From: Cytophagales bacterium
GTDB lineage: Bacteria > Bacteroidota > Bacteroidia > Cytophagales > Cyclobacteriaceae
Reading direction: 5' to 3'
Length of the DNA stretch: 35,520 nucleotides
Assembly (NCBI GenBank): GCA_013298505.1
Contig: JAAFHY010000028.1
Coordinates: forward strand, 1 to 35,520
Positions within the stretch are counted from its first letter, which is position 1. Each line of letters begins with the position of its first letter. The notes under the pieces were generated by a model. That model was not told where the DNA came from. It worked only from the letters and a program-made list of their open reading frames with translations, and did not search any database. This document shows positions 2,182 to 13,524 of the stretch, piece by piece. Made by a program: the position numbers and the translations under genes.

Positions 2182-2946
2182 CTATTTATAAATCTGGTTA
2201 AATACTCCCGCCAAGCGTATGCCTGCTTGCAACAATCGTTGCTTTACCAAATCCATATTTTTATACGAATACTTAAAACTAAGATTGCCATCGCCTATTG
2301 CATACACTTGCTTGCGGTACAACATCGACTCACTCGCCCACTCACGCACGGTGGCTCGCTGCCATTTTTTCAATTCATCTTTTGAAGGCTCGCCCAATGC
2401 CAAACCTACTTCGGTGTAGCTAAGTTTTGTGTCGTCTATCAAGCCGCTGTCCCACACACTATGTAAATTCGTATCGTTTCTAAACCACTTTACTTTCACG
2501 TTGTTGCCACCACGATCATCACAACAACCAACATGCAGCGGCTGATGAATATCGCCCACTAAGTGGACAATCATCTTTACATATTCGATCTGATCCTTAC
2601 GACTAACCTTTCCTGTTTTCAACGATGCGATTAAACGTTCTAGTGTCATGATCACATCTCCGTTTGGATTTTTAGGGGACTCTTCATACGTCTTCCCTGT
2701 TTCAATCGTTACCCAATGCCAATCTGCTGTATGGTTGTACGTAGAGTCTGATCGGATCTCGTCCATCCAAGTGCCTACAATGGCGAGTGACTGTTGACCC
2801 AGTAGCTCTTTTAATTTCTTTTTTGCTTTTGGCGTTAAGTGCTGCTCTGCCACCCAACCAATGGCGCGATGACCCGTTACACCCCAACCAAACGAAGTGA
2901 GCGTGATTGAAAATAAGAGAACAGAAAGAATAATTTTATTTTTCAT
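2182..2946 (-). CDS. Secreted S1/P1-family nuclease
   Basis: Zinc-dependent single-strand nuclease/3'-nucleotidase of the S1/P1 family. The ATG at 2946 is preferred over an in-frame upstream ATG at 2988, because it places a classical signal peptide (MKNKIILSVLLFSITLTSFG) directly at the N-terminus, giving 254 residues. Cleavage after FG would leave tryptophan as the first mature residue. That fits the family, in which the mature N-terminal Trp coordinates zinc. Other zinc-binding blocks visible are GHRAIGWVAE, HTADWHWV, HLVGDIHQPLHVG and HSVWDSGLI. The protein is presumably periplasmic or exported and scavenges nucleic acids. It lies upstream of the mazG-like gene on the same strand and is divergent from the DUF155 gene. 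Confidence 0.92.
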   Translation of the reverse strand: MKNKIILSVLLFSITLTSFGWGVTGHRAIGWVAEQHLTPKAKKKLKELLGQQSLAIVGTWMDEIRSDSTYNHTADWHWVTIETGKTYEESPKNPNGDVIMTLERLIASLKTGKVSRKDQIEYVKMIVHLVGDIHQPLHVGCCDDRGGNNVKVKWFRNDTNLHSVWDSGLIDDTKLSYTEVGLALGEPSKDELKKWQRATVREWASESMLYRKQVYAIGDGNLSFKYSYKNMDLVKQRLLQAGIRLAGVFNQIYK

Positions 2947-2985
2947 AATTGATGGATAGTTCGGTTTAGTTTTTTCACTGTGGCA

Positions 2986-2993
2986 CAAAGTTA
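2986..2993 (-). promoter_or_regulatory. Candidate -7 promoter box of the S1/P1 nuclease gene
   Basis: On the minus strand this reads TAACTTTG, an exact match to the Bacteroidota -7 consensus TAnnTTTG, 40 bases before the chosen ATG at 2946. I see no clear TTG -33 element at 17-20 bases further upstream, so confidence is moderate. The position supports the shorter start, because the alternative ATG at 2988 would overlap the box. Confidence 0.4.
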
Positions 2994-3099: not shown

Positions 3100-3885
3100 A
3101 TGGAAAAGACAATAAAGCTATCTGCTTTACTAGTAGCCAATCAGTTGGATATCAAGGGGATCAAAAGTTTTCTCGAAGTAAAGACTGCGTCCGAATCATC
3201 TACCGAGTTGATGTATAGTTTTGGAAAAGACCGGTATCAATACTATTTCAATTATGGCGTAATTGTTTTTGCGGGGCACTCAGAAGAAGAAATCAAAATC
3301 GCTGTAAAAGCCATATCGGCTTACCTAAAAGATCCGAACAATAATTGGTTACGAGACGATCATGAAATCAGTATACAAGATGGTGAAATGGAATTTGATT
3401 TTGATCAATTGATTGTCGATCGGCTAGATGATAAAGTCGTTCGCATCACCATGTTCAACTTGGCGCAATCTGTGGCATTGGATTATTACCACAACGTGAC
3501 TGAAAATTTACTTACAGAAATAAAAGGATTCGCACGGCATTTAGAGAAAACGGGAAAGCTTAGCATCAATCGCAAGGAAATGATCAAGTTTATTGGAAAG
3601 GCATTGACCACCCAAAACGATATTGCCGATAACATTTATATTTTTGATGCACCTGAGCAAGTATGGGACGATGAGTACTTAGATAAACTCCATAAAGGAT
3701 TAATGAAGCATTTCGATTTGCGTGTGCGCTTTAGCGAAATCGAATATACACTTCGCATTATTGAAGATAACCTTAGCATTTTCAGAGAAATTTCGCATCA
3801 GCGCGAAAGCAGCATTTTAGAATGGATCATTATCATTTTGATCTTAGTAGAAGTTTTCGACCTGCTCATTTCTAAAATTCTTTAG
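3100..3885 (+). CDS. DUF155 / RMD1-YagE family protein with C-terminal membrane anchor
   Basis: Recognised as the RMD1/DUF155 family (yeast Rmd1, Rmd8 and Mrx10 are members), which has no established bacterial function. The 261 residues show the family features: FGKDRYQYYFNYGVIVFAGH near residues 41-60, the central block FNLAQSVALDYYHNVTENLL near residues 124-143, and a helical, charged C-terminal half ending in one hydrophobic segment (ILEWIIIILILVEVFDLLI) that should anchor the protein in the inner membrane with its bulk in the cytoplasm. It ends 2 bp before the C39-like peptidase gene, so it probably leads the four-gene run that continues with two amide-bond ligases. Whether it works with those enzymes or only shares their transcript is unknown. 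Confidence 0.8.
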   Translation: MEKTIKLSALLVANQLDIKGIKSFLEVKTASESSTELMYSFGKDRYQYYFNYGVIVFAGHSEEEIKIAVKAISAYLKDPNNNWLRDDHEISIQDGEMEFDFDQLIVDRLDDKVVRITMFNLAQSVALDYYHNVTENLLTEIKGFARHLEKTGKLSINRKEMIKFIGKALTTQNDIADNIYIFDAPEQVWDDEYLDKLHKGLMKHFDLRVRFSEIEYTLRIIEDNLSIFREISHQRESSILEWIIIILILVEVFDLLISKIL

Positions 3886-3887
3886 CA

Positions 3888-4604
3888 ATGCCCAATCGCC
3901 AAGCGCTATTTTTAAATTTCGATATAGAGGCACAGCCCGATGATGTAACCTGTGGCCCCACTTGCTTACATTCCATTTATCAATATTATCAAGATGAAAT
4001 ATCGCTGCGGCAAGTGGTAAGTGAAGTAAAAAGTTTGAAGACTGGCGGCACCTTGGCTGTTATGTTGGGCAATCACGCACTTAAACGAGGTTACAAAGCG
4101 AGCATCTACACGTATAACTTAAATGTATTCGACCCTACTTGGTTTTCACTTTCGCAAGCAAAGATGATTAGTAACTTGAAAAAGCAAATGCGCTACAAAT
4201 TCAGAAGCAAAAAACTTCAAGTAGCATCAAAAGCATATATCAAGTTTGTTGAGGCAGGCGGCATTGTGCAACAAAAAGAATTAGATGAACACTTGATCAA
4301 AGATTACCTGAAAAAAGATATTCCAATTTTGACTGGGTTAAGTGCCACCTATCTTTACGGAACACAGCGAGAAATATCTGCCACCAATAAATTTGACAGC
4401 ATCAAAGGCGAACCCGTAGGGCATTTTGTTATCATCAACGGGTATGATGAACCTACCAACAAAGTTTATCTGGCCGACCCCATGAACCCCAATCCGTTGA
4501 AGAGCCAGTATTATAATGTAACCTTTGATCGCCTCATCAACAGCATTATGTTGGGCATTGTAACATACGATGCCAACTTGTTAATTATAGAACCGAAAAA
4601 GTAA
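3888..4604 (+). CDS. C39-like papain-fold cysteine peptidase
   Basis: Papain-fold peptidase or amidase resembling the C39 bacteriocin-processing family, 238 residues, with no signal peptide and no transporter fused to it. The putative catalytic set is complete: oxyanion Gln16 and Cys22 (AQPDDVTCGPTC), His179 (VGHFVIINGYD) and Asp197 (VYLADPM). C39 domains normally remove leader peptides at double-glycine sites, but stand-alone members also act in isopeptide or transamidation chemistry. It begins 2 bp after DUF155 and lies 109 bp before an ATP-grasp ligase, which is followed by a GCS2 ligase. A peptidase beside two amide-forming enzymes suggests it trims, transfers or recycles the peptide-like product; that is inference. 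Confidence 0.8.
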   Translation: MPNRQALFLNFDIEAQPDDVTCGPTCLHSIYQYYQDEISLRQVVSEVKSLKTGGTLAVMLGNHALKRGYKASIYTYNLNVFDPTWFSLSQAKMISNLKKQMRYKFRSKKLQVASKAYIKFVEAGGIVQQKELDEHLIKDYLKKDIPILTGLSATYLYGTQREISATNKFDSIKGEPVGHFVIINGYDEPTNKVYLADPMNPNPLKSQYYNVTFDRLINSIMLGIVTYDANLLIIEPKK

Positions 4605-4664
4605 TTTGAAAATTATTCAATTTGAATACCATCTATAAATAAACAATACAAATCATAGCTTACT

Positions 4665-4709
4665 TCATTTTCAAATTTGCTCATTTTCAAATTGTGTAAT
4701 TTTCAATTG
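4665..4709. repeat. Three imperfect 16-bp direct repeats
   Basis: TCATTTTCAAATT occurs at 4665-4677 and again at 4681-4693, with a degenerate third unit TAATTTTCAATTG at 4697-4709. The phase is constant at 16 bp and the tract ends 4 bases before the ATP-grasp start codon. The complementary string AATTTGAAAATT lies at 4603-4614, just after the peptidase stop, so the two ends of this 109-bp gap can pair. It may be a regulator site or a leader structure controlling the second half of the cassette. Confidence 0.5.
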
Positions 4710-4713
4710 AGTT

Positions 4714-6162
4714 ATGCCCAAACTAATTGTAGTTGAAAAGCCCGAAGCGTGGAAGTTTAACTTGGAGGACGTAGAATTAATCACGCCCGAAATGTATATT
4801 TCAATGGAGGCTTATCAGTCATTCAAAAATTTAAAAGTCATTAATCTTTGCAAATCGTATCAATACCAAAGCGAAGGTTACTATGTATCGTTACTGGCCG
4901 AGGCACGCAGCCACAAAGTATTGCCGGGTGTTTCTACCATTCAAGATTTGCGTTTTCCATCGATACTGAGAGACGATTCGCTGGATTTTGACGAACTCAT
5001 ACAAAGCACTTTTAAAAACGAACCGTACGATCGCATCGAGTTTAATATTTACTTTGGGAATACGCTTTCTGAAAACCTAAACAAACTTGGCCTTCAATTA
5101 TTTCAGTTGGTACAAGCCCCTTCTATCCGAGCCTCGTTTTCAAAAAAGCACAAATGGGTTTTGCACAGCATAAAGCCATTAAGTATAAACGAAGTTCCAG
5201 AATCTGACAAACCCGTGCTGATAAACGCACTTGAAAAATACCTGCATCGGAAACGCGACTACAAGCCCGATCGAAAAAAATACGACTTAGCCATTTTAGT
5301 AAATCCAGACGATGCCAACCCACCATCGGATGACAAAGCACTTAAGCGTTTTTACAAAGCGGCTTTAGAAGCAGGCTTTAATACTGAGTTTATAACCAAA
5401 AATGATTTTGATCAACTCATTCAATACGATGCACTGTTTATTCGCGAAACAACCAACGTAAATCACCATACATTTCGCTTTGCAAAAAAGGCTGCTTCGC
5501 TTGGTTTGGTGGTCATCGATGATCCGCAGTCAATTTTAAAATGCACAAATAAAGTTTACTTACATGAGCTACTGAGCGCCAATAAAATTCTTACACCAAA
5601 ATCGTTTGTTGTCTCCGAAGATAATTGCGAGCACCTTTCAGACAAAATAGCTTTTCCGTTCATACTAAAACAACCCGATGGGGCTTTTTCAAAAGGCGTT
5701 TTTAAAATAGAATCCATCGAACAATTTAAACAAGTGCGTGAAAGTATGTTCGAAAAATCTGACTTACTGATAGCACAAGAATTTTTACCTACACCGTTCG
5801 ACTGGCGTGTAGGTATTATTGATGGCCAAGTTTTGTTTGTGTGCAAGTACTTTATGGCCAGCAAGCATTGGCAAATCATTAACTGGAACGCTCAAAAAGA
5901 AACAACCCGTGATGGTGATGTGGCTTGCATCGCCATCGACCAGGCTCCATCGGGCTTATTAAAAACAGCGCTAAAAGCAACCTCCCTTATCGGAAAAGGC
6001 CTTTATGGTGTGGATATGAAAGAGGTGAACGAAAAATTCTATGTGATCGAAATCAACGACAATCCGAACATTGACTCAGGAATTGAAGACAAAATCCTTA
6101 AAGACAAATTGTACGATACGATAATGGAAGTATTTTTAAACAAAATAAAATCCGAAAAATGA
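4714..6162 (+). CDS. RimK-type ATP-grasp ligase with N-terminal RLAN-like domain
   Basis: ATP-dependent carboxylate-amine ligase, 482 residues. Residues 1-170 form a separate alpha/beta domain that resembles the RLAN domain (RimK-like ATP-grasp N-terminal) described in predicted peptide-ligase clusters. Residues 190-480 are the ATP-grasp domain: pre-ATP-grasp strand KKYDLAILVNPDD; ATP-binding Lys319 in FPFILKQPDGAFSKGVF; Glu356 in AQEFL; DWRVGIIDG at 363-371; and the magnesium site EINDNPNID with Glu446 and Asn448. RimK-fold enzymes activate a carboxylate as acyl phosphate and couple it to an amine, making peptide or gamma-glutamyl-like bonds. The next gene overlaps its end by 4 bases (6159-6162), so the two ligases are translationally coupled. 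Substrates cannot be inferred. Confidence 0.85.
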   Translation: MPKLIVVEKPEAWKFNLEDVELITPEMYISMEAYQSFKNLKVINLCKSYQYQSEGYYVSLLAEARSHKVLPGVSTIQDLRFPSILRDDSLDFDELIQSTFKNEPYDRIEFNIYFGNTLSENLNKLGLQLFQLVQAPSIRASFSKKHKWVLHSIKPLSINEVPESDKPVLINALEKYLHRKRDYKPDRKKYDLAILVNPDDANPPSDDKALKRFYKAALEAGFNTEFITKNDFDQLIQYDALFIRETTNVNHHTFRFAKKAASLGLVVIDDPQSILKCTNKVYLHELLSANKILTPKSFVVSEDNCEHLSDKIAFPFILKQPDGAFSKGVFKIESIEQFKQVRESMFEKSDLLIAQEFLPTPFDWRVGIIDGQVLFVCKYFMASKHWQIINWNAQKETTRDGDVACIAIDQAPSGLLKTALKATSLIGKGLYGVDMKEVNEKFYVIEINDNPNIDSGIEDKILKDKLYDTIMEVFLNKIKSEK

Positions 6163-7397
6163 ATCAACCCTCGCGCATTCACTTGTTTCAGGCATACGGC
6201 ATTGAGTTAGAATACATGCTCGTAGATAAAGAAACTTTAACGGTAAAACCCATTGTAGATGAAGTGCTCAAGCACGAACTTGGTATTTACGGAAGCGATT
6301 TTGAAAACGGAATCGTAACCTGGTCGAATGAATTGGTGCTGCACGTAATTGAATTAAAGTCTACCAAGCCAGAATCAAATTTTAATGCACTCGAAAATGG
6401 TTTTGCCGATGACATCCGAAGAATAAACGGCATTCTTGAAAAATGGAACGCCATGTTGCTGCCCACCGCAGCACATCCTTTTATAGATCCGCTCACCGAA
6501 ACAAAACTTTGGCCACACGATAGCAACGAAGTATACAATCTGTACGATTCAATTTTTAATACCAAAGGCCATGGATGGTCTAACTTACAAAGCACACACT
6601 TAAATCTTCCATTTTACGATGATGAAGAATTTGCCAAACTCCACGCAGCCGTGCGTTTACTGTTGCCAATTATACCAGCTTTGTGCGCCAGCTCGCCAAT
6701 CTTAGATGGTAAACTAACAGGCACCCTTGATACACGCATCGATTTTTACAAAACTAATCAAGCAAAAATTCCTTCCATTACCGGAAAAGTAATTCCCGAA
6801 GCAATTTTTTCAAAAAGAAACTATCTCAATGCCATCTACGAAAAAATAAAATCGGATGTAGCTCCGTATGACAAAGAAAATATATTGAACCCGATATGGG
6901 TTAACTCGCGTGGCGCCATCCCACGGTTCGATAGGGGCTCTATTGAAATTAGGATCATGGACATTCAAGAATGCCCTTCGGCAGATATGGCCATCATTAC
7001 TTTGGTGATTGAAACCTTAAAGGCATTAGTAAACGAAAGACTCATCAACTTAGAGGCGCAAATGAAATTTAAAACCGAAGGCCTCGTTCAGATTTTTGAC
7101 AAGACCAGTAAATTTGGCCAACAAGCCACCATCGATCATTGGGAATATGTGCAGGCGTTTGGGCATAATTCAAATTGCACCGCAGGCGAACTTTGGAAAC
7201 TATTGATTGAAAAATTATCGGTTGGAAATAGTGCGTTAGAAAAATGGAAACCTGAACTCAATATTATTCTTACCGAAGGCACGTTATCAAACAGAATCAT
7301 TAAATCGCTCAATGGTGATACCTCTGCCGAGGCAATCAAAAAAGTATATAAGCAACTGGGCGGTTGCTTGGCACAGAATAAAATGTTTGTGCCGTAA
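6159..7397 (+). CDS. GCS2-family carboxylate-amine ligase (glutamate-cysteine ligase-like)
   Basis: Glutamine-synthetase-fold ligase of the GCS2 group, 412 residues, related to glutamate-cysteine ligase and YbdK. The metal-binding signature GIELEY (Glu16, Glu18) opens the domain, followed by NELVLHVIELKSTKP, STHLNLPF, SSPILDGKLTGTLDTR, and the C-terminal substrate block NSRGAIPRFDRGSIEIRIMD. These enzymes join the gamma- or alpha-carboxylate of an amino acid to an amine using ATP. No glutathione synthetase gene is adjacent; the partner ligase is the RLAN/ATP-grasp protein immediately upstream with a 4-base overlap. That makes a two-step conjugate with at least two amide bonds a reasonable prediction. 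Classical glutathione synthesis is possible but not specifically supported. Confidence 0.85.
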   Translation: MNQPSRIHLFQAYGIELEYMLVDKETLTVKPIVDEVLKHELGIYGSDFENGIVTWSNELVLHVIELKSTKPESNFNALENGFADDIRRINGILEKWNAMLLPTAAHPFIDPLTETKLWPHDSNEVYNLYDSIFNTKGHGWSNLQSTHLNLPFYDDEEFAKLHAAVRLLLPIIPALCASSPILDGKLTGTLDTRIDFYKTNQAKIPSITGKVIPEAIFSKRNYLNAIYEKIKSDVAPYDKENILNPIWVNSRGAIPRFDRGSIEIRIMDIQECPSADMAIITLVIETLKALVNERLINLEAQMKFKTEGLVQIFDKTSKFGQQATIDHWEYVQAFGHNSNCTAGELWKLLIEKLSVGNSALEKWKPELNIILTEGTLSNRIIKSLNGDTSAEAIKKVYKQLGGCLAQNKMFVP

Positions 7398-7427
7398 GTC
7401 AGGTCACTTTTATTTTTTTCAATTCCA

Positions 7428-7451
7428 TGGCCTGTGTCCTCACAGGCTATT
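7428..7451. terminator. Hairpin between convergent genes
   Basis: GCCTGTG (7431-7437) and CACAGGC (7442-7448) form a stem closed by a 4-base loop TCCT and extendable by three further pairs on the outside, one of them G-T. It sits 30 bases after the ligase stop and about 55 bases from the stop of the convergent PorP/SprF-like gene. No strong T-run follows on the plus strand. A bidirectional terminator is the likely role. Confidence 0.5.
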
Positions 7452-7505
7452 ATCATTTCGTTTCGGTGTGTGTGACACGAACCGAGGGTTTGGATGAGAG
7501 ACAAA

Positions 7506-8402
7506 TCAAAACGTTTTCACCCCTTGATCGTGGTAGGTGAACACGCCCATGGAAATGCCCAGCATGATTTCGTGGCTCACAAAATTTAAACTCGAAGCAG
7601 GGCTGCCGGGCAATTCGAACACGTAACCCAGCTTGAATTTCTTTACGCTTGCTTGCATCAACAGCCCATAGGTTTTGAAGTTGCGCGTGAAAATACCGGC
7701 CGAGTAATGTTCCCTAAAGGTGAAGGTCGCATTCACGTCTGCCGAAATGGGTGCACCTGCCGAACCGCGCAACAGCAGCGAGGGTTTGAACCGTACCGTC
7801 TCTGAAAGGAACCAAACATACGAGCCGAACAAATAGTAATGCTGCTTGTACAATTCGATCGATTGCCCTCCTTGGCTCACCGATGTGGGGATGAGCCGCG
7901 GCACCGAAAGGCCAACCATGTAGCGGTCGCTCTTCAACAACGCGCCCGTGCCCACATTGAATTTTGTTTCTGTGAGCGAATTGAATGATGGGTCGCCTGG
8001 GTCCCTGATCGTGAGCAACGATGCATCGTTGGAGTAGCGGAAAAACCCCGCTTGCAGCCCCAACGACAGCACGGCATCTTTCAAGTTTATTTTGTAGGCG
8101 TAGGCCGCGCTCACCTCAGTGTTCTTGGTGTCGCCAAGTTTGTCTTGGTTCACGTTCAGCCCGATGCCCAGTTTATTGTTGCGTGCCGAAATGTGGCTTG
8201 AGAAATTAAATGTGGAAGGGTTCGCCTCCAGCCCCGCCCACTGCGTGCGGTATTGGATAGACGCGTTGAACATTTTGTTGCTTCCCGCATAGGCCGGGTT
8301 GATGAGCAACGGGTTGTTCATGTACTGCGCATAGATGGGGTCTTGCTGGGCGGTTGCGGCAAGCGGAGCTGCTAATGCGAGAAGGAGTAGTAGATATTTC
8401 AT
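7506..8402 (-). CDS. PorP/SprF family type IX secretion outer-membrane protein
   Basis: Outer-membrane beta-barrel of the PorP/SprF family, 298 residues with signal peptide (MKYLLLLLALAAPLAATAQ). The diagnostic N-terminal block QDPIYAQYMNNPLLINPAYA directly follows the cleavage site, then alternating amphipathic strands and an aromatic C-terminus. Flavobacterium SprF, encoded just downstream of sprB, is needed to deliver SprB to the surface. Here too the gene lies 73 bp downstream of a giant secreted protein with the matching C-terminal domain type. The probable job is therefore export or surface attachment of that partner. The gene is clearly richer in G and C than the regions on either side (hand count 38 of 60 at 7741-7800), a property shared only with the 3' end of the upstream gene. 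Confidence 0.9.
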   Translation of the reverse strand: MKYLLLLLALAAPLAATAQQDPIYAQYMNNPLLINPAYAGSNKMFNASIQYRTQWAGLEANPSTFNFSSHISARNNKLGIGLNVNQDKLGDTKNTEVSAAYAYKINLKDAVLSLGLQAGFFRYSNDASLLTIRDPGDPSFNSLTETKFNVGTGALLKSDRYMVGLSVPRLIPTSVSQGGQSIELYKQHYYLFGSYVWFLSETVRFKPSLLLRGSAGAPISADVNATFTFREHYSAGIFTRNFKTYGLLMQASVKKFKLGYVFELPGSPASSLNFVSHEIMLGISMGVFTYHDQGVKTF

Positions 8403-8422
8403 AAGTTTTAAATTTTGGCCGA

Positions 8423-8456
8423 CCTCACCCCTATCCCCTCTCCACAGGAGAGGGGA
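8423..8456 (-). repeat. Dispersed GGAGAGGGG hairpin element, copy B
   Basis: TCCCCTCTCC (8434-8443) and GGAGAGGGGA (8447-8456) form a perfect 10-bp stem around ACA, with CCTCACCCCTA immediately beside it at 8423-8433. It occupies the 73-bp gap between two minus-strand genes. The same core and the same CCTCACC neighbour occur in copies A and C. On the minus strand it may reduce read-through from the giant gene into the PorP/SprF-like gene. Confidence 0.65.
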
Positions 8457-8475
8457 AGAGCTTGCGGCATTTTTT

Positions 8476-11400
8476 TTATTTTCTCAATGCGATAAACCCT
8501 GTTTTCTCCGATCCGCCATTGGCAAATTTGATTTTGTAATAATATGTGCCAGGAGGTAGCGCATCGCCACTGTTGTCCAATCCACGGAACACGCGGTTTG
8601 TGTTGTCGTAATTCTCTACCTCAAACACCACATCACCCCAGCGGTTGAAGATCATTACTTTATTGTTTTTTGTTTCGGGCAGTATGTCGATGTATTGGAT
8701 TTGGAAGGTTGGGTTCTTGTTGTCGCCATTGGGCGAGATGGCATTGTACACGGTAATGTTGCCTCCCAATTCGATGGCAACGGTTTGGGTTGTGCAGAGC
8801 GAGGTGAGGTCGCAAACCGAAAGGTTGATCACATCGGTGCCCGTAAAAGGGAAGCCCGCATAGTTGATCGAGAGCACCATGCCGCTGAGCGAGAAGGGCG
8901 CACCGCTGCTGATGCTGATTACTTGTAGCGTGCTTTCATCCAAATCGTTTTCAGGGTCGGAGATGAGCGGGCGCAGGTCGATCTTCACTTCGCCTTCGAT
9001 GAAGGCCGTAGCCGTGGTGCTGGCAACCGCTGGCGCGGTACAATTTTTTACCGAGGCGTTGGCATTCGCCTTGCTACTTTCGCACGTGCCATCGAAAATG
9101 GAGGCCTGGAAAGTTTTGTTCGAGGTGAGATTGGTAACTAATAGCTGGCTGTTCACTTGCCCGATAATGACGTTCGCCCCATCGTACCATCGGTAATTTC
9201 CATTCGTAGTACCTGAAGCACTGAGCGTGATGTTGCTGCCCGCGCACACGGCAGCAGCGGGGCTAACGGTGGGCGTTGGGGGCAATGGCAGCATGGTCGC
9301 GACCACTTCGGTGCGCGTACTCTCGCAAGTGCCGTTGTTGATGGCCGCCCAAAACGAAGTGGTGGTTGTGAGCGCGGGTGTAGGTATGTATATATCATTT
9401 GTTTGACCCGCAATGGCCGTTCCGCCAGTCGAAGTGGTGTACCAGCGATATTGCCCGTTAGCTCCTCCGCTTGCGGCAATGGAAATATCTGTTCCGCTGC
9501 AACCGCTGTTATTGATTGGAGTTGGTGGGTTTGGTAAAGGATTGACGGTAAGCGTTACCGCATTTGAAAAAATATCTGATGCCAAATCGCCTGATACTTT
9601 GCATCGGTAGTCTGCGGCTCCAAAATTTCCGGTTGTATTTACTGTAAGTGTAGGGGAAGTTGCTCCTGAGATACCGCCTCCGTCAGTAACGTCTGCATAC
9701 CCAACACCGTTAATGGCTACCACATCCATTTGGATAAACTGCCCATCAAATGCAGAAGGTGCTGGCGATATCCCAGGAATGATGATGGGATTGCCAAACT
9801 GATCTTTGTTTTTGAGAATTGCGTTTTCGATTGTAAAGGCTCTTAGCTCAACATTAGCTCCAGACTTAATACTGATCGTTTGCTGGTAGTCCATCGCAAT
9901 ACAGTATAAGTTCTCAACGCCTGCATTTAGATAATAGATTCCTGGAGGATCTGAGATTCGAAGTTCATAAATATTGTATGCAGTAGATGTAGGTGTTCCG
10001 TTCGCATTCCAAAAACCTGTTGTTGTACCGCCTAAATAGGTTTTTGTTTCTACCACACCCCGAAAGCGCATTGCTACGGAATATGTTGTACCGGAAACTC
10101 CACCCATAACCGCTATAACGGGCGCGGGATCAATAGCTGTGGCGGATATACCATCTGGTAAATCAGCTATTGATGGAATATTCCATCTTAAGCCACTAAG
10201 CGAGGCAGCCTCGGAACTTATTTTTTGCCATTGATAGGCAAGGTTGGTAGTACCCGATGATGCAAGAGTGAATGAAGCGGTCGCACCATCACACACTGCT
10301 GTAGAAATTGGTTGGGGAGATATAGTGATTGTTACAGGTGCTGGAACCGTAAAATTACTTGCACTCGTTACCGTATTGCAGCCAATTGACACCTCAATTG
10401 GCCCCGTTGTGGCGCCAACAGGAACAGTAACGGTTAGTGTGGTAGCCGTTGATGCTGTAATGATTGCAGGGATACCATTAATCTTGACAGCGTTGATGAA
10501 TGGTGTGTTGAAGTTTATTCCTGTTATTGTTACCGAACTCCCGATAGGGCCAGAAAGCGGTGCAAAGGAAGCAATGGTCGGTGGATTTATAAGGCCGACA
10601 AGATTCTGATAGATGGAAAGAGACCCACCGACAAAATTACCAACTACTATTTCAGGTCTGCCGTCTCCGTCAATATCTCCGGCTGTAATGCCTGCTGGAT
10701 TTGCACCTGTTGGTATGTTAATGCCAGCTGCAAATGAAGCAGAGGTGATTGACCCTACTGCCGAAGTGTTCTTAAATAAAGTGAACGCATCGCTACCGGA
10801 ATTTGTAACAGCAAGATCTAACTTCCCGTCCCCATCAAAATCTGCTAAGCCAAAGTGATTCGGTGTTGAACCCACCGCAAAATCAACTTTAGGTGAAAAG
10901 GATGATGAATTGATTGTACCTCCGGAAACATTTTGAAGGATCGAGATCGTACTAAACGCAAAATTATTAGAAGCTAGTATGTCTAGTTTGCTGTCTCCAT
11001 CCACGTCTGCCAATGCTAGCCCATAGGGTGAACTACTTGTTGGAAAATCTACCTTGGCTGCAAATGAACTTGAATTTATAACACCTAAGGAAGTAGTATT
11101 TTGAAATACGGAAACGGAATTACTTATATTATTTAAAGCAATGATATCTGGCTTGCTATCACCGTTAACATCACCAATCGCCACGTCATAAGGTTCTGTG
11201 CCAGTTGAAAAATTGACGGGTGCTGCAAACGTTGAGGTCGAGAAACTACCTGACGAACTTGTGTTTTTGTAAACCGAAACAGAATTGCTGAATCGGTTTG
11301 AAACGATAATTTCCGGTTTACCATCACCATCAAAATCTGCAATTGCTGTCTTCCAAGGGTCAAGCCCAGTAGCAAAATCTACTTTATTGTCAAATGAGAG

Positions 11401-13524
11401 ACTACCTGATGTACTGGTATTTCGATACACTGAAATTGCAGCACTTTGAGCATTCGCTACTACTAAGTCAAGCTTACCATCGCCATCAATGTCTCCCGCT
11501 GTTGCGCTCCATGGCTGGTCTAGGGTTGCTAAGTTGATAGGTGTTGAAAGAGAGCTAGAGTTGAGAACTCCACTGGTGCTTACGTTTCTGTAGATTGAAA
11601 GTAGGTTACTGCCACGGTTTGTGATTGCAATATCCCCTTTACCATCTCCATCAAAATCATTGATGGCAATACCCAGAGGATTAAAATCTGTTGCAATATC
11701 TACTTTGGGTGCAAAACTGCATGCATCTATCAAGCCTCCACCCGAGAATATTGGCAGAAATTGCTTGGATGAATAAGCAATTAGCCCCACCACCTGAACA
11801 GTAATAGGTTGATACGTTGCTCCAGTTGGAACAGTAACGGTAAGTTGCGTTGCTGTGGCAACGGTAACAGTAGCGCGGGTTGCCCCGAAGTAGACAATAT
11901 TGTTAGCCGGTGTGGTACTGAAGTTTGTGCCGGTAATGGTTACTGTAGTGCCTGTAGGGCCAGAGGTAGGGGTAAAGGAGGTGATGGTGGGTACTGAAAA
12001 AATAGGGTTATTTCTTAAAATCGATAAGCTATTCTCGTCACGATTAGCCACTACTAACTCTGCCTTGCCATCGCCATCCATATCACCAATGGAAACGGAA
12101 CGTGGATATAAACCCGAGGGAAAATCTACTTTGACGGCATAGCTAATAGCACCAACTGCTATACTGGTGTTTCTCAAAACGGATACCGTGTTGCTATTTT
12201 GATTAGCAACCGCTAAGTCTGGTTTGCCATCGCCATCCAAATCACTTATGGAAACGGCCCTCGGGATTGAACCTGAGGAAAAATCTATTTTGGCATCAAA
12301 ACCAATATTACCAGCACCTGTACTTGTGTTCCTGAGAATAGACACCGTGCTACTAAATCTATTAGCCACCGCCAGATCTGCCTTGCCATCGCTATCCAGA
12401 TCTCCTGTAGAAATGGAAGTAGGGGCTGAACCTGTGGGAAAGTCTATCTTAATATCAAATCCAATATTGCTGGGTCCTGTACTTATATTCCTAAAAATGG
12501 ATACTGTGTTGCTAATTTCGTTCGCCACTGCTAAATCAGCTTTACCATCTCCATCCAAGTCACCAATTGAAGCAGAACGTGGGCTTGTACCAGTCGAAAA
12601 GTCATCTTTCGTGGCGTAGCTAATCACTCCAATTCCTGTGCTCTTATTTCTGAAAATAGATAGAGTGCTATTAGAATAATTCGTCACCGCCAAGTCAGCT
12701 CTGCCATCTCCATCCAGATCTCCTATAGAAATAGAGATTGGCTGCGTTCCTGTCGTAAAATCTATTTTACTGGCATAACTAATAGAACCCACACCTGTAC
12801 TGGTATTCATAAAAATGGATATCGTATTGCTGGTATAATTTGTTACAGCCAAGTCATTCTTGCCATCTCCATCCAAATCACCTATGGCAACGGAAGTTGG
12901 TTCAGAGTCAGTAGTAAAATCTACTTTGGCAGCATAACTAATAAAACTTGGCCCTGTGCTAGTATTTCGGAAAACTGATATTGTGTTGCTGCTACTATTC
13001 GTCACCACCAAGTCAGCCTTACCATCGCTATCCAAATCGCCAATAGAAACGGAGTATGGGCTTGACCCCGTGGCGAAGTCTGTCTTAGGGTTAAAATCAC
13101 TTGGTGTAATGCTTCCCTTATTGGGTGAAAATGCAGGGATAAAGTTGGTGGTTGAGAATGCTTGTAAACCTGATGAGATATTGAGAACCGTAATGGATGC
13201 ATACTTAGCACCCGTTGGCACAGTCACAGTAAGCTGCGTTGCCGTAGCTGCTGTTACTGTTGCGCGCGTTGCTCCAAAATAAACAACGTTGTTAGGGGCT
13301 GTGGTGTTGAAATTTGTTCCGGTAATCGTAACCGTTGTGCCAACAAAGCCGATGACAGGTGTAAAAGCTGTAATTGTTGGAGATTGCCCAAATACATTGT
13401 GTAAAAGTAAGCTGCACAACAGCACAATGCACACAAATACCCTGCGTGAATGCTTACTGCTCCTGGGTTTGGATTGATTGCTAACTTGATTTCTCATTTT
13501 ACTCTTTATCAATTTTAGATTCAT
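8476..13524 (-). CDS. Giant secreted IPT/FG-GAP/Ig-like protein with gliding-motility-type C-terminal domain
   Basis: 1682 residues, secreted across the outer membrane by T9SS. A long basic leader and hydrophobic segment end near residue 47 (LLLHNVFGQ); ATG at 13497 is an alternative start. Order: IPT/TIG 47-133; seven FG-GAP/VCBS repeats 143-507; IPT 510-595; seven FG-GAP repeats 601-978; IPT 980-1066; an Ig-like domain begun at 1068-1101 and finished at 1273-1327 with a foreign insert between; two Ig-like repeats 1328-1493; a cadherin-like segment 1495-1588; and the gliding-motility-associated sorting domain 1590-1682 (VYNAISPNGDNKN, VMIFNRWGDVVFE, LPPGTYYYKIKF). FG-GAP repeats carry DLDGDGKAD-like calcium loops. 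It probably acts as a surface adhesin or shell protein, with the PorP/SprF-like protein encoded next as its export partner. Confidence 0.88.
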   Translation of the reverse strand: MNLKLIKSKMRNQVSNQSKPRSSKHSRRVFVCIVLLCSLLLHNVFGQSPTITAFTPVIGFVGTTVTITGTNFNTTAPNNVVYFGATRATVTAATATQLTVTVPTGAKYASITVLNISSGLQAFSTTNFIPAFSPNKGSITPSDFNPKTDFATGSSPYSVSIGDLDSDGKADLVVTNSSSNTISVFRNTSTGPSFISYAAKVDFTTDSEPTSVAIGDLDGDGKNDLAVTNYTSNTISIFMNTSTGVGSISYASKIDFTTGTQPISISIGDLDGDGRADLAVTNYSNSTLSIFRNKSTGIGVISYATKDDFSTGTSPRSASIGDLDGDGKADLAVANEISNTVSIFRNISTGPSNIGFDIKIDFPTGSAPTSISTGDLDSDGKADLAVANRFSSTVSILRNTSTGAGNIGFDAKIDFSSGSIPRAVSISDLDGDGKPDLAVANQNSNTVSVLRNTSIAVGAISYAVKVDFPSGLYPRSVSIGDMDGDGKAELVVANRDENSLSILRNNPIFSVPTITSFTPTSGPTGTTVTITGTNFSTTPANNIVYFGATRATVTVATATQLTVTVPTGATYQPITVQVVGLIAYSSKQFLPIFSGGGLIDACSFAPKVDIATDFNPLGIAINDFDGDGKGDIAITNRGSNLLSIYRNVSTSGVLNSSSLSTPINLATLDQPWSATAGDIDGDGKLDLVVANAQSAAISVYRNTSTSGSLSFDNKVDFATGLDPWKTAIADFDGDGKPEIIVSNRFSNSVSVYKNTSSSGSFSTSTFAAPVNFSTGTEPYDVAIGDVNGDSKPDIIALNNISNSVSVFQNTTSLGVINSSSFAAKVDFPTSSSPYGLALADVDGDSKLDILASNNFAFSTISILQNVSGGTINSSSFSPKVDFAVGSTPNHFGLADFDGDGKLDLAVTNSGSDAFTLFKNTSAVGSITSASFAAGINIPTGANPAGITAGDIDGDGRPEIVVGNFVGGSLSIYQNLVGLINPPTIASFAPLSGPIGSSVTITGINFNTPFINAVKINGIPAIITASTATTLTVTVPVGATTGPIEVSIGCNTVTSASNFTVPAPVTITISPQPISTAVCDGATASFTLASSGTTNLAYQWQKISSEAASLSGLRWNIPSIADLPDGISATAIDPAPVIAVMGGVSGTTYSVAMRFRGVVETKTYLGGTTTGFWNANGTPTSTAYNIYELRISDPPGIYYLNAGVENLYCIAMDYQQTISIKSGANVELRAFTIENAILKNKDQFGNPIIIPGISPAPSAFDGQFIQMDVVAINGVGYADVTDGGGISGATSPTLTVNTTGNFGAADYRCKVSGDLASDIFSNAVTLTVNPLPNPPTPINNSGCSGTDISIAASGGANGQYRWYTTSTGGTAIAGQTNDIYIPTPALTTTTSFWAAINNGTCESTRTEVVATMLPLPPTPTVSPAAAVCAGSNITLSASGTTNGNYRWYDGANVIIGQVNSQLLVTNLTSNKTFQASIFDGTCESSKANANASVKNCTAPAVASTTATAFIEGEVKIDLRPLISDPENDLDESTLQVISISSGAPFSLSGMVLSINYAGFPFTGTDVINLSVCDLTSLCTTQTVAIELGGNITVYNAISPNGDNKNPTFQIQYIDILPETKNNKVMIFNRWGDVVFEVENYDNTNRVFRGLDNSGDALPPGTYYYKIKFANGGSEKTGFIALRK
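10591..11724 (-). repeat. Second tract of seven FG-GAP repeats in the giant secreted gene
   Basis: Residues 601-978 contain seven units of about 50-57 residues, each with a core of the type DFDGDGKLDLAVTN followed by S-V-Y-x-N-T-S. The unit linkers (for example GSINSSSF-like strings) differ from those in the first tract. Several loops have degenerate calcium ligands, such as DVNGDSKPD and DVDGDSKLD. Confidence 0.8.
12004..13098 (-). repeat. First tract of seven FG-GAP repeats in the giant secreted gene
   Basis: Residues 143-507 contain seven units of about 53 residues (about 159 bp). Each reads approximately ISYAxKxDFxTGxxPxSxSIGDLDGDGKADLAVxN, then xSNTxSIFRNTSTG. The units are more alike than those of the second tract, which points to recent expansion or ongoing homogenisation. 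Confidence 0.85.

Follow-up and report, generated by a model that had tools for sequence, protein, structure and literature searches.

The closest described relatives of this locus are the RLAN/RimK-type amidoligase systems (ATP-grasp/GNAT/papain) that Iyer, Abhiman, Burroughs and Aravind reportedly predicted in 2009. These are said to fuse RLAN to a RimK-like ATP-grasp domain and to have genes for a papain-like peptidase and for GCS2 nearby. We know of no substrate or product for any member of the cassette. The ATP-grasp fold is also found in small-molecule ligases, and the Pfam entry for RLAN reportedly places it in a ribosomal-gene neighbourhood. In excerpts of one article (PMC5264221), RMND1, a mitochondrial DUF155 protein, is reported to reside in the inner mitochondrial membrane and to serve as an anchor or stabiliser of the mitochondrial ribosome.

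As shown in Table 1, the window (the whole stretch of 35,520 nucleotides that was analysed) encoded the RLAN-RimK-like ATP-grasp fusion, an adjacent GCS2 ligase and an adjacent papain-like peptidase, as well as a DUF155 protein. An earlier note on this DNA had put the genes forward as a candidate for an undescribed system, but the core of the cassette was probably already predicted in the ATP-grasp/GNAT/papain amidoligase work of 2009. The additions made here are the conserved unit C39-like peptidase–RLAN/ATP-grasp–GCS2–FGase, in which FGase is a divergent N-formylglutamate-amidohydrolase-like protein (a fifth family, often last in the operon), and the DUF155 link. No account of the cassette, or of a product for its carriers, was found in the open-licence literature, which covered few subscription papers.

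Table 1. Features of the cassette region in the window.
Feature	Position	Strand	Evidence
DUF155 (RMND1/Sif2-Sif3/Mrx10 family) protein, 261 aa	3100..3885	+	ORF + Pfam
DUF155 C-terminal hydrophobic segment LEWIIIILILVEVFDLLISKIL, presumed single membrane anchor	3817..3882	+	read from translation
C39-like (papain-fold) cysteine peptidase, 238 aa	3888..4604	+	ORF + Pfam
AT-rich gap, 109 bp, without open frame	4605..4713	+	stops in all six frames
RLAN/ATP-grasp ligase, whole gene, 482 aa	4714..6162	+	ORF + Pfam
RLAN (RimK-like ATP-grasp N-terminal) domain within the 482-aa ligase	4792..5223	+	PF14401
ATP-grasp half of the 482-aa ligase	5272..6162	+	
GCS2-type carboxylate-amine ligase, divergent, 412 aa	6159..7397	+	PF04107
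Possible intrinsic terminator 3' of GCS2, 10-pair stem	7427..7450	+	pattern scan only

The ORF calls agreed with the four plus-strand genes described before: the first two lie 2 bp apart, the second and third are separated by 109 bp, and the last two overlap by 4 bases. The family names given to them were confirmed, all scoring above the Pfam cut-offs. The first protein matched DUF155 (PF02582) with 109.5 bits (cut-off 27) over residues 48-213 and belongs to the DUF155/RMD1 family. The second matched Peptidase_C39_2 and Peptidase_C39 with 50.5 and 33.3 bits (cut-offs 24 and 22), respectively. The ligase matched RLAN with 143.9 bits (cut-off 25) over residues 27-170 and RimK (PF08443) with 44.0 bits (cut-off 21), and the last protein matched GCS2 with 81.4 bits (cut-off 21). 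Residues Q16, C22, H179 and D197 of the C39 protein were invariant among 16 cassette homologues; from what is known of papain and C39 enzymes, we take C22, H179 and D197 to be catalytic and Q16 to be the oxyanion residue. Also invariant were G55-A62, A64 and R65 of the RLAN domain across 16 sequences, the G14-x-E16-x-E18 motif and further His, Arg and Glu columns of GCS2 in 16 homologues, and E241, W242, I244, L247, I248 and E251 in the C-terminal hydrophobic segment of DUF155 in 16 rows (15 distinct).

The gap between the C39 and RLAN genes, measured by the first start codon in 11 close relatives, was 2-39 bp in seven and 155 bp in two, and the genes overlapped by 23-47 bp in the remaining two. 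A search of the 109-bp gap and the flanks by six-frame stops and small-ORF clustering found no RiPP precursor. The pattern scan gave eight terminator-like sites in the region compared with 4.8 expected by shuffling. Matches to sigma-70 promoters were not in excess (17 vs 14.3 +/- 4.3 in shuffles), and Bacteroidota promoters are said to differ from the sigma-70 type. No structured RNA was above the threshold in the window.

A draw of 395 genomes from the phylum contained 44 RLAN-bearing genomes, and the operon C39-like peptidase–RLAN/ATP-grasp–GCS2–FGase recurred in 30 of these, giving 30 short-RLAN loci with the window included. Every one of the 30 had GCS2 directly behind the RLAN ligase, C39 was upstream in 27, and FGase was downstream in 20; the window had none, and FGase seems to have been lost from its genus. 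Because GCS2 came next after RLAN in 30/30 loci and the RLAN-GCS2 spacing had a median of -4 bases over 126 loci, this gene order is not due to chance. The earlier suggestion that two amide-forming ligase families and a peptidase belong together stands. Recurrence of all four families across Bacteroidota had been named as the check, which held for C39, RLAN and GCS2 but not for DUF155, adjoining the cassette in just 4/30 phylum loci. Thus, the four genes are not the conserved unit, which more often includes FGase. With moderate confidence, we read the window as carrying a lineage-specific variant of an amidoligase cassette that is widespread.

A wider set comprised 151 loci, 42 of which came out of the 395-genome draw. 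GCS2 was present in 126/151 and a GNAT-fused ligase in none of those 126, while all 15 loci with GNAT-fused ligases were without GCS2; within this sample the two were mutually exclusive. The GNAT in L081 and L083 was detected by Pfam and missed by the in-house profile, and L247 and L248, with no GNAT in Pfam, were counted as neither type. The GNAT family was absent by Pfam from all four window proteins, so its cassette belongs to neither the GNAT-peptidase (DUF3335) nor the GNAT-RLAN subtype. The alternation of GCS2 and GNAT is a testable rule for the role of the second enzyme. C39 was not seen in 11 and FGase in 41 of the 126 GCS2 cassettes, some of these gaps being contig ends, as in L112. 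In three loci C39 and RLAN occurred without GCS2; the set is therefore not obligatory. At least 593 stretches matched the ligase patterns in a one-genome-per-species collection, in which one locus may match twice. The named loci were the best 80 of these 593, ranked by likeness to the window's ligase, and are therefore tilted to the GCS2 type; the record titles of these best 80 included Bacteroidetes, Planctomycetes, Spirochaetes, Fibrobacter, Desulfobulbaceae, Omnitrophota and others. Chryseolinea serpens and a Pontibacter species are among the cultured carriers. Two named loci had genomes that also stood in the phylum draw (L139 = L048 and L153 = L053), and L085 (G370), a broken match below the cut-off with five in-frame stops, was left outside the counts.

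Three other clusters matched DUF155 in how often they recurred around the cassette: an S1/P1 nuclease family (14 loci, each from a close relative of the window), a histidine-kinase cluster (14 loci, at scattered positions on both strands) and MacB-like proteins (11 places in 6 loci). These were judged to be local synteny or common families and not partners.

The reading we lean towards is a predicted amidoligase pathway in which two ligases build and two hydrolases trim, with the acceptor encoded elsewhere and DUF155 as a lineage-specific membrane accessory. We infer the direction of the reactions, the acceptor, the division of labour and the recruitment to the membrane as follows. The RLAN/ATP-grasp ligase would convert a carboxylate to an acyl-phosphate and then couple it with an amino acid or amine. 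As with its nearest structural relatives ArgX, LysX and RimK, this carboxylate would probably be the terminus of an acceptor protein or peptide. GCS2 would form a second amide bond, probably gamma-glutamyl-like, taking the position held by the fused GNAT acyltransferase in a different subtype of RLAN. The groups attached by the ligases may be trimmed or taken off again by the C39-like cysteine peptidase and, in loci that have it, by the FGase-like amidohydrolase. Since no substrate gene was found in the operon, we assume that a housekeeping protein or a common metabolite serves as the acceptor. DUF155 would be an accessory with a C-terminal anchor, and it may recruit the enzymes, or else their acceptor, to the membrane; its membrane insertion is predicted from sequence, and tethering is plausible because there is one C-terminal hydrophobic segment.

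There is, however, close to an even chance that DUF155 is a neighbour by accident, kept by synteny and unrelated to the enzymes. The cassette-linked DUF155 genes belonged to one Cytophagales lineage, and among the best 80 of 593 DUF155 was near the cassette in 10 loci, directly in eight and with one intervening gene in two. It was located elsewhere in 14 of the 18 DUF155-bearing phylum genomes, its co-occurrence with RLAN in the phylum was weak (5/18 vs 39/377, P 0.04 ignoring kinship), and no common neighbourhood was seen for 13 other Bacteroidota DUF155 genes. In the relatives L098-L100 the cassette occupied this same location but DUF155 was missing. On the other hand, DUF155 was 2 bp from C39 or overlapped it in six of eight close relatives. 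Furthermore, in another taxonomic order, genes of a second anchor-type family with a DUF155-like C-terminal end, possibly kin to DUF155, sat next to the cassette in 12 of the order's 30 RLAN genomes, with two orientations in two separate clades; the DUF155 link may for this reason be real. This family, labelled PF27233, matched DUF155 in hhalign over the last 81-84 columns with E values of 2.3e-9 and 5.8e-10. Without the hydrophobic end, E values were 0.011 and 0.0046 in the same register, with a probability of only 4-8%, while three unrelated alignments gave 0.24-0.43. Global alignment without this end found nothing, and there was no DUF155 match in Pfam.

Another possibility, which we consider less likely, is a small-molecule pathway on the model of glutathione and phytochelatin synthesis, in which GCS2 would couple free amino acids into a gamma-glutamyl dipeptide, a third residue would be attached by the ATP-grasp enzyme and the papain-fold enzyme would act as a transpeptidase. 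The enzyme classes are the same as in glutathione synthesis, the G-x-E-x-E motif is kept in GCS2 and no protein acceptor gene was found at the operon. However, GCS2 was far under the cut-offs of glutamate-cysteine ligases (42.5 vs 249 bits for TIGR02048 and 45.3 vs 371 bits for NF010039), and the Pfam matches of the C39 protein did not include the phytochelatin synthase family. By sequence, the ligase half reached up to 41 bits against RimK/LysX-type chains and 20 bits against glutathione synthetase. Its C-terminal half was nearest to ArgX, LysX and RimK in the predicted model, a comparison in which D-Ala ligases tied with the lowest RimK-type rows, glutathione synthetase was compatible too, at least one row in five covered only residues 187-482, and residues 1-186 were modelled solely within the whole protein. 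The GCS2 profile had no confident match among solved structures (best E 0.054). The glutathione pathway itself was rejected from family scores and genomic context: no glutathione synthetase was beside the cassette, the genome's sole GSH-S_ATP match (72 bits) was on another contig (C7), and the window GCS2 shared 23% identity with the genome's second GCS2. These results support the earlier note in setting the locus apart from glutathione synthesis.

A bolder proposal, which we regard as a long shot, is that DUF155-type anchored proteins are membrane platforms at which the ligases would mark a translation or ribosomal component in a RimK-like manner, with the peptidase and FGase erasing the mark. 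If true, the mitochondrial ribosome anchor RMND1 would derive from, or be a cousin of, the docking component of a bacterial machine that modifies ribosomes. As for ribosomal genes near RLAN, no ribosomal protein was found among the representative neighbours scanned, namely eight recurrent or flanking genes (MacB/FtsX, DnaJ, ECF sigma, MFS, Pmp3, HHH, histidine kinase and PorP) and seven more. Most improbable is RiPP/graspetide maturation, in which the ATP-grasp enzyme would cross-link a precursor and the C39 peptidase cut off its leader: although the C39 peptidase together with its ABC transporter tops a table of graspetide ATP-grasp-associated families in a survey seen in excerpt (PMC8939145), the same survey describes C39 peptidases as not typically encoded at graspetide loci, its main text does not name RLAN or GCS2, the C39 protein had no transporter domain (Pfam), and small ORFs (25-95 aa, ATG/GTG/TTG starts only) within 700 bp of the 126 cassettes formed no cluster in more than four loci, those clusters looking lineage-bound.

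The predicted amidoligase pathway was compared with known systems. In contrast to the systems reportedly predicted in 2009, the window peptidase has no GNAT domain, DUF155 lies in front and FGase, frequent in other loci, is absent. The RLAN/ATP-grasp core is shared with the GNAT-RLAN-ATP-grasp fusions and the GNAT-DUF3335 peptidases, but the fusions have GNAT where the window type has GCS2, never both in 151 loci. Unlike ArgX, LysX and RimK, the window ligase carries an additional RLAN domain, scores below the cut-off of the RimK alpha-L-glutamate ligase family (TIGR00768, 78 vs 143.4 bits), and has no conserved small carrier gene at window-type cassettes. The second ligase belongs to the same GCS2 family as the YbdK/GCS2 carboxylate-amine ligases but was far under the cut-offs of all seven listed NCBIfam ligase models. 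As the earlier note had it, DUF155 is without a described bacterial function in the titles and abstract openings of the literature on DUF155 and bacteria. The window protein has the DUF155 domain in common with mitochondrial RMND1, while it is bacterial and lies beside ligases. RMND1 is a gene for mitochondrial disease in humans, and the DUF155 link is a genomic lead on possible partners of its bacterial relative.

ORF reading reproduced exactly the positions, strand and spacing of the four genes in the earlier note, and Pfam upheld its family assignments: DUF155, C39-type peptidase, RLAN with RimK-type ATP-grasp, and GCS2. Within a 3.96 Mb draft genome the window corresponds to contig C128, and the loci closest to it, among the top-ranking 80 of 593 named stretches, came from Cytophagales-type MAGs and Chryseolinea. 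Downstream of the cassette, the Pfam scan identified a PorP/SprF gene on the opposite strand, with a terminator-like stem in between. The upstream nuclease gene (see table) was retained next to the cassette in 14 close relatives, also without DUF155 (loci L098-L100). In the 1682-aa protein, FG-GAP-like and IPT-like repeated stretches and a C-terminus resembling type IX secretion cargo were seen by eye.

Coordinates of features near the cassette and elsewhere
Feature	Location	Position	Context	Basis
S1/P1 nuclease gene	window	2182-2988	divergent from DUF155, upstream of cassette	Pfam scan
1682-aa protein	window	8476-13524	adjoins PorP/SprF gene	
Gene row with second GCS2 (374 aa)	L087 (G000:C79, window's genome)	6832-11191	same-strand genes	
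Sigma-factor-like gene	L111	7636-8202	opposite strand, between DUF155 and C39	translation
Sigma-factor-like gene	L109	7652-8224	opposite strand, between DUF155 and C39	translation

RLAN was present in 44 of the 395 Bacteroidota genomes (43 above the cut-off), and the surroundings were examined in all 44. A short RLAN-ATP-grasp protein was encoded in 30, GCS2 being the next gene in every case. Recurrence of the four genes as a set held for C39-RLAN-GCS2, with a C39-like gene preceding the ligase in 27 of these 30 loci (none found in genomes G226, G198 and G355). It did not hold for DUF155, which lay beside the cassette in 4/30 (the window, one same-genus and two same-family genomes); instead, a divergent FGase (N-formylglutamate-amidohydrolase-like) gene followed GCS2 in 20/30, with PF05013 scores of 62.6 to 85.5 bits in the three tested. 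The other genomes carried RLAN with an N-terminal GNAT fusion and no GCS2 (12/44), a split RLAN plus GNAT-DUF3335 peptidase (G155), or a broken RLAN match (G370). The window's genome and G146 lacked the cassette-type FGase; their sole matches, at 233 and 216 bits, respectively, were far stronger and located elsewhere, and both types were present in G049 and G186. The window's genus therefore seems to have lost this tail gene, while possessing a head gene, DUF155, that is rare in the phylum.

The wider sample of 151 loci, the window left out, comprised 42 phylum loci already examined, the best 80 of the 593 named stretches, and 29 loci from the order of genome G395, reached via one of those 80. 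GCS2 was found in 126/151 loci, accompanied by C39 in 115, FGase in 85, and DUF155 or a DUF155-like anchor gene within 2.5 kb in 25. Two pairs came from the same genome; counted by distinct ligase proteins, the numbers were 149 loci, 124 GCS2, 113 C39, 83 FGase and 25 anchor genes. Gaps of at most 20 bp, including overlaps and taking the first start codon as gene start, separated C39-RLAN in 98/115, RLAN-GCS2 in 112/126 and GCS2-FGase in 82/85 loci. Further gene clusters near the cassette recurred within single lineages or at scattered positions.

GNAT-fused RLAN occurred in 15/151 loci (13 by profile, L081 and L083 by Pfam), never with GCS2 (0/15; P 1.8e-14, kinship ignored). Acyl-phosphates are the intermediates through which ATP-grasp and GCS2 enzymes form amides, and an amine can be acylated by GCS2 with ATP and a free acid or by GNAT with acyl-CoA. 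Their mutual exclusion alongside the same kind of RLAN ligase points to GCS2 and GNAT serving one and the same step, in which an amine would be capped or extended before or after the ATP-grasp step. Ten loci had neither GCS2 nor the fusion, with a GNAT gene close by in two (L084 and L157). In L157, a separate GNAT-like gene precedes RLAN and a PLP-dependent Orn/Arg/DAP-type decarboxylase follows it, possibly hinting at an amine substrate. Three others, the planctomycete-labelled L118, L149 and L165, retained C39 and RLAN, the smallest cassette form seen; no GCS2 was found there, tblastn included, and no FGase nearby. C39 and FGase belong to hydrolase families. Because no precursor gene was found within reach of the cassettes, trimming or recycling is a likelier role for them than leader removal, and their patchy presence means that both are dispensable for some products.

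DUF155 was present in 18 phylum genomes and lay at the cassette in 4/18. Of the remaining 14 loci, L185 stops at its contig's edge and yielded no ORF. No neighbourhood was common to the 13 others (L086 and 12 newly fetched loci), except for one gene common to one genus; a family of ~930 aa lay near DUF155 in two of the 13, at differing positions. One clade (support 98/91) united the cassette-linked DUF155 proteins with Reichenbachiella and with a Marinoscillum copy not linked to the cassette. In G320 (L074), a sigma-70 region 2 protein adjoins the cassette.

In the order of G395, a PF27233-labelled family with a hydrophobic C-terminal end similar to that of DUF155 adjoined the cassette in 12/30 RLAN genomes. 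It occurred anywhere in the genome in 20/30 RLAN genomes versus 15/91 others (P 5.6e-7); one of those 15 is marginal, and its omission lowers P to 2.7e-7 (kinship ignored in both). Of the 12 genes at the cassette, five were same-strand and seven divergent; the two arrangements occupied separate regions of the RLAN tree, with loci without the gene interspersed among the divergent ones. The family's final 80 residues are similar to the C-terminal end of DUF155; after removal of the hydrophobic end, the match kept its register at weak values (probability 4-8%, E 0.0046 to 0.011, against E 0.24-0.43 for unrelated controls), and global comparison found no match. By sequence, the C-terminal part of the family is likely akin to that of DUF155. 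Taken together, these observations slightly favour a functional link between DUF155 and the cassette.

In the row containing the genome's second GCS2, a class-I glutamine amidotransferase domain and two proteins lacking Pfam matches are also encoded; the row is possibly another amide-ligase cluster.

As predicted from its genes, the window cassette is a widely distributed two-ligase amidoligase cassette. This kind of system had probably been predicted earlier; the present work adds the conserved unit, with FGase in and DUF155 out for most, and a putative DUF155-type membrane partner.
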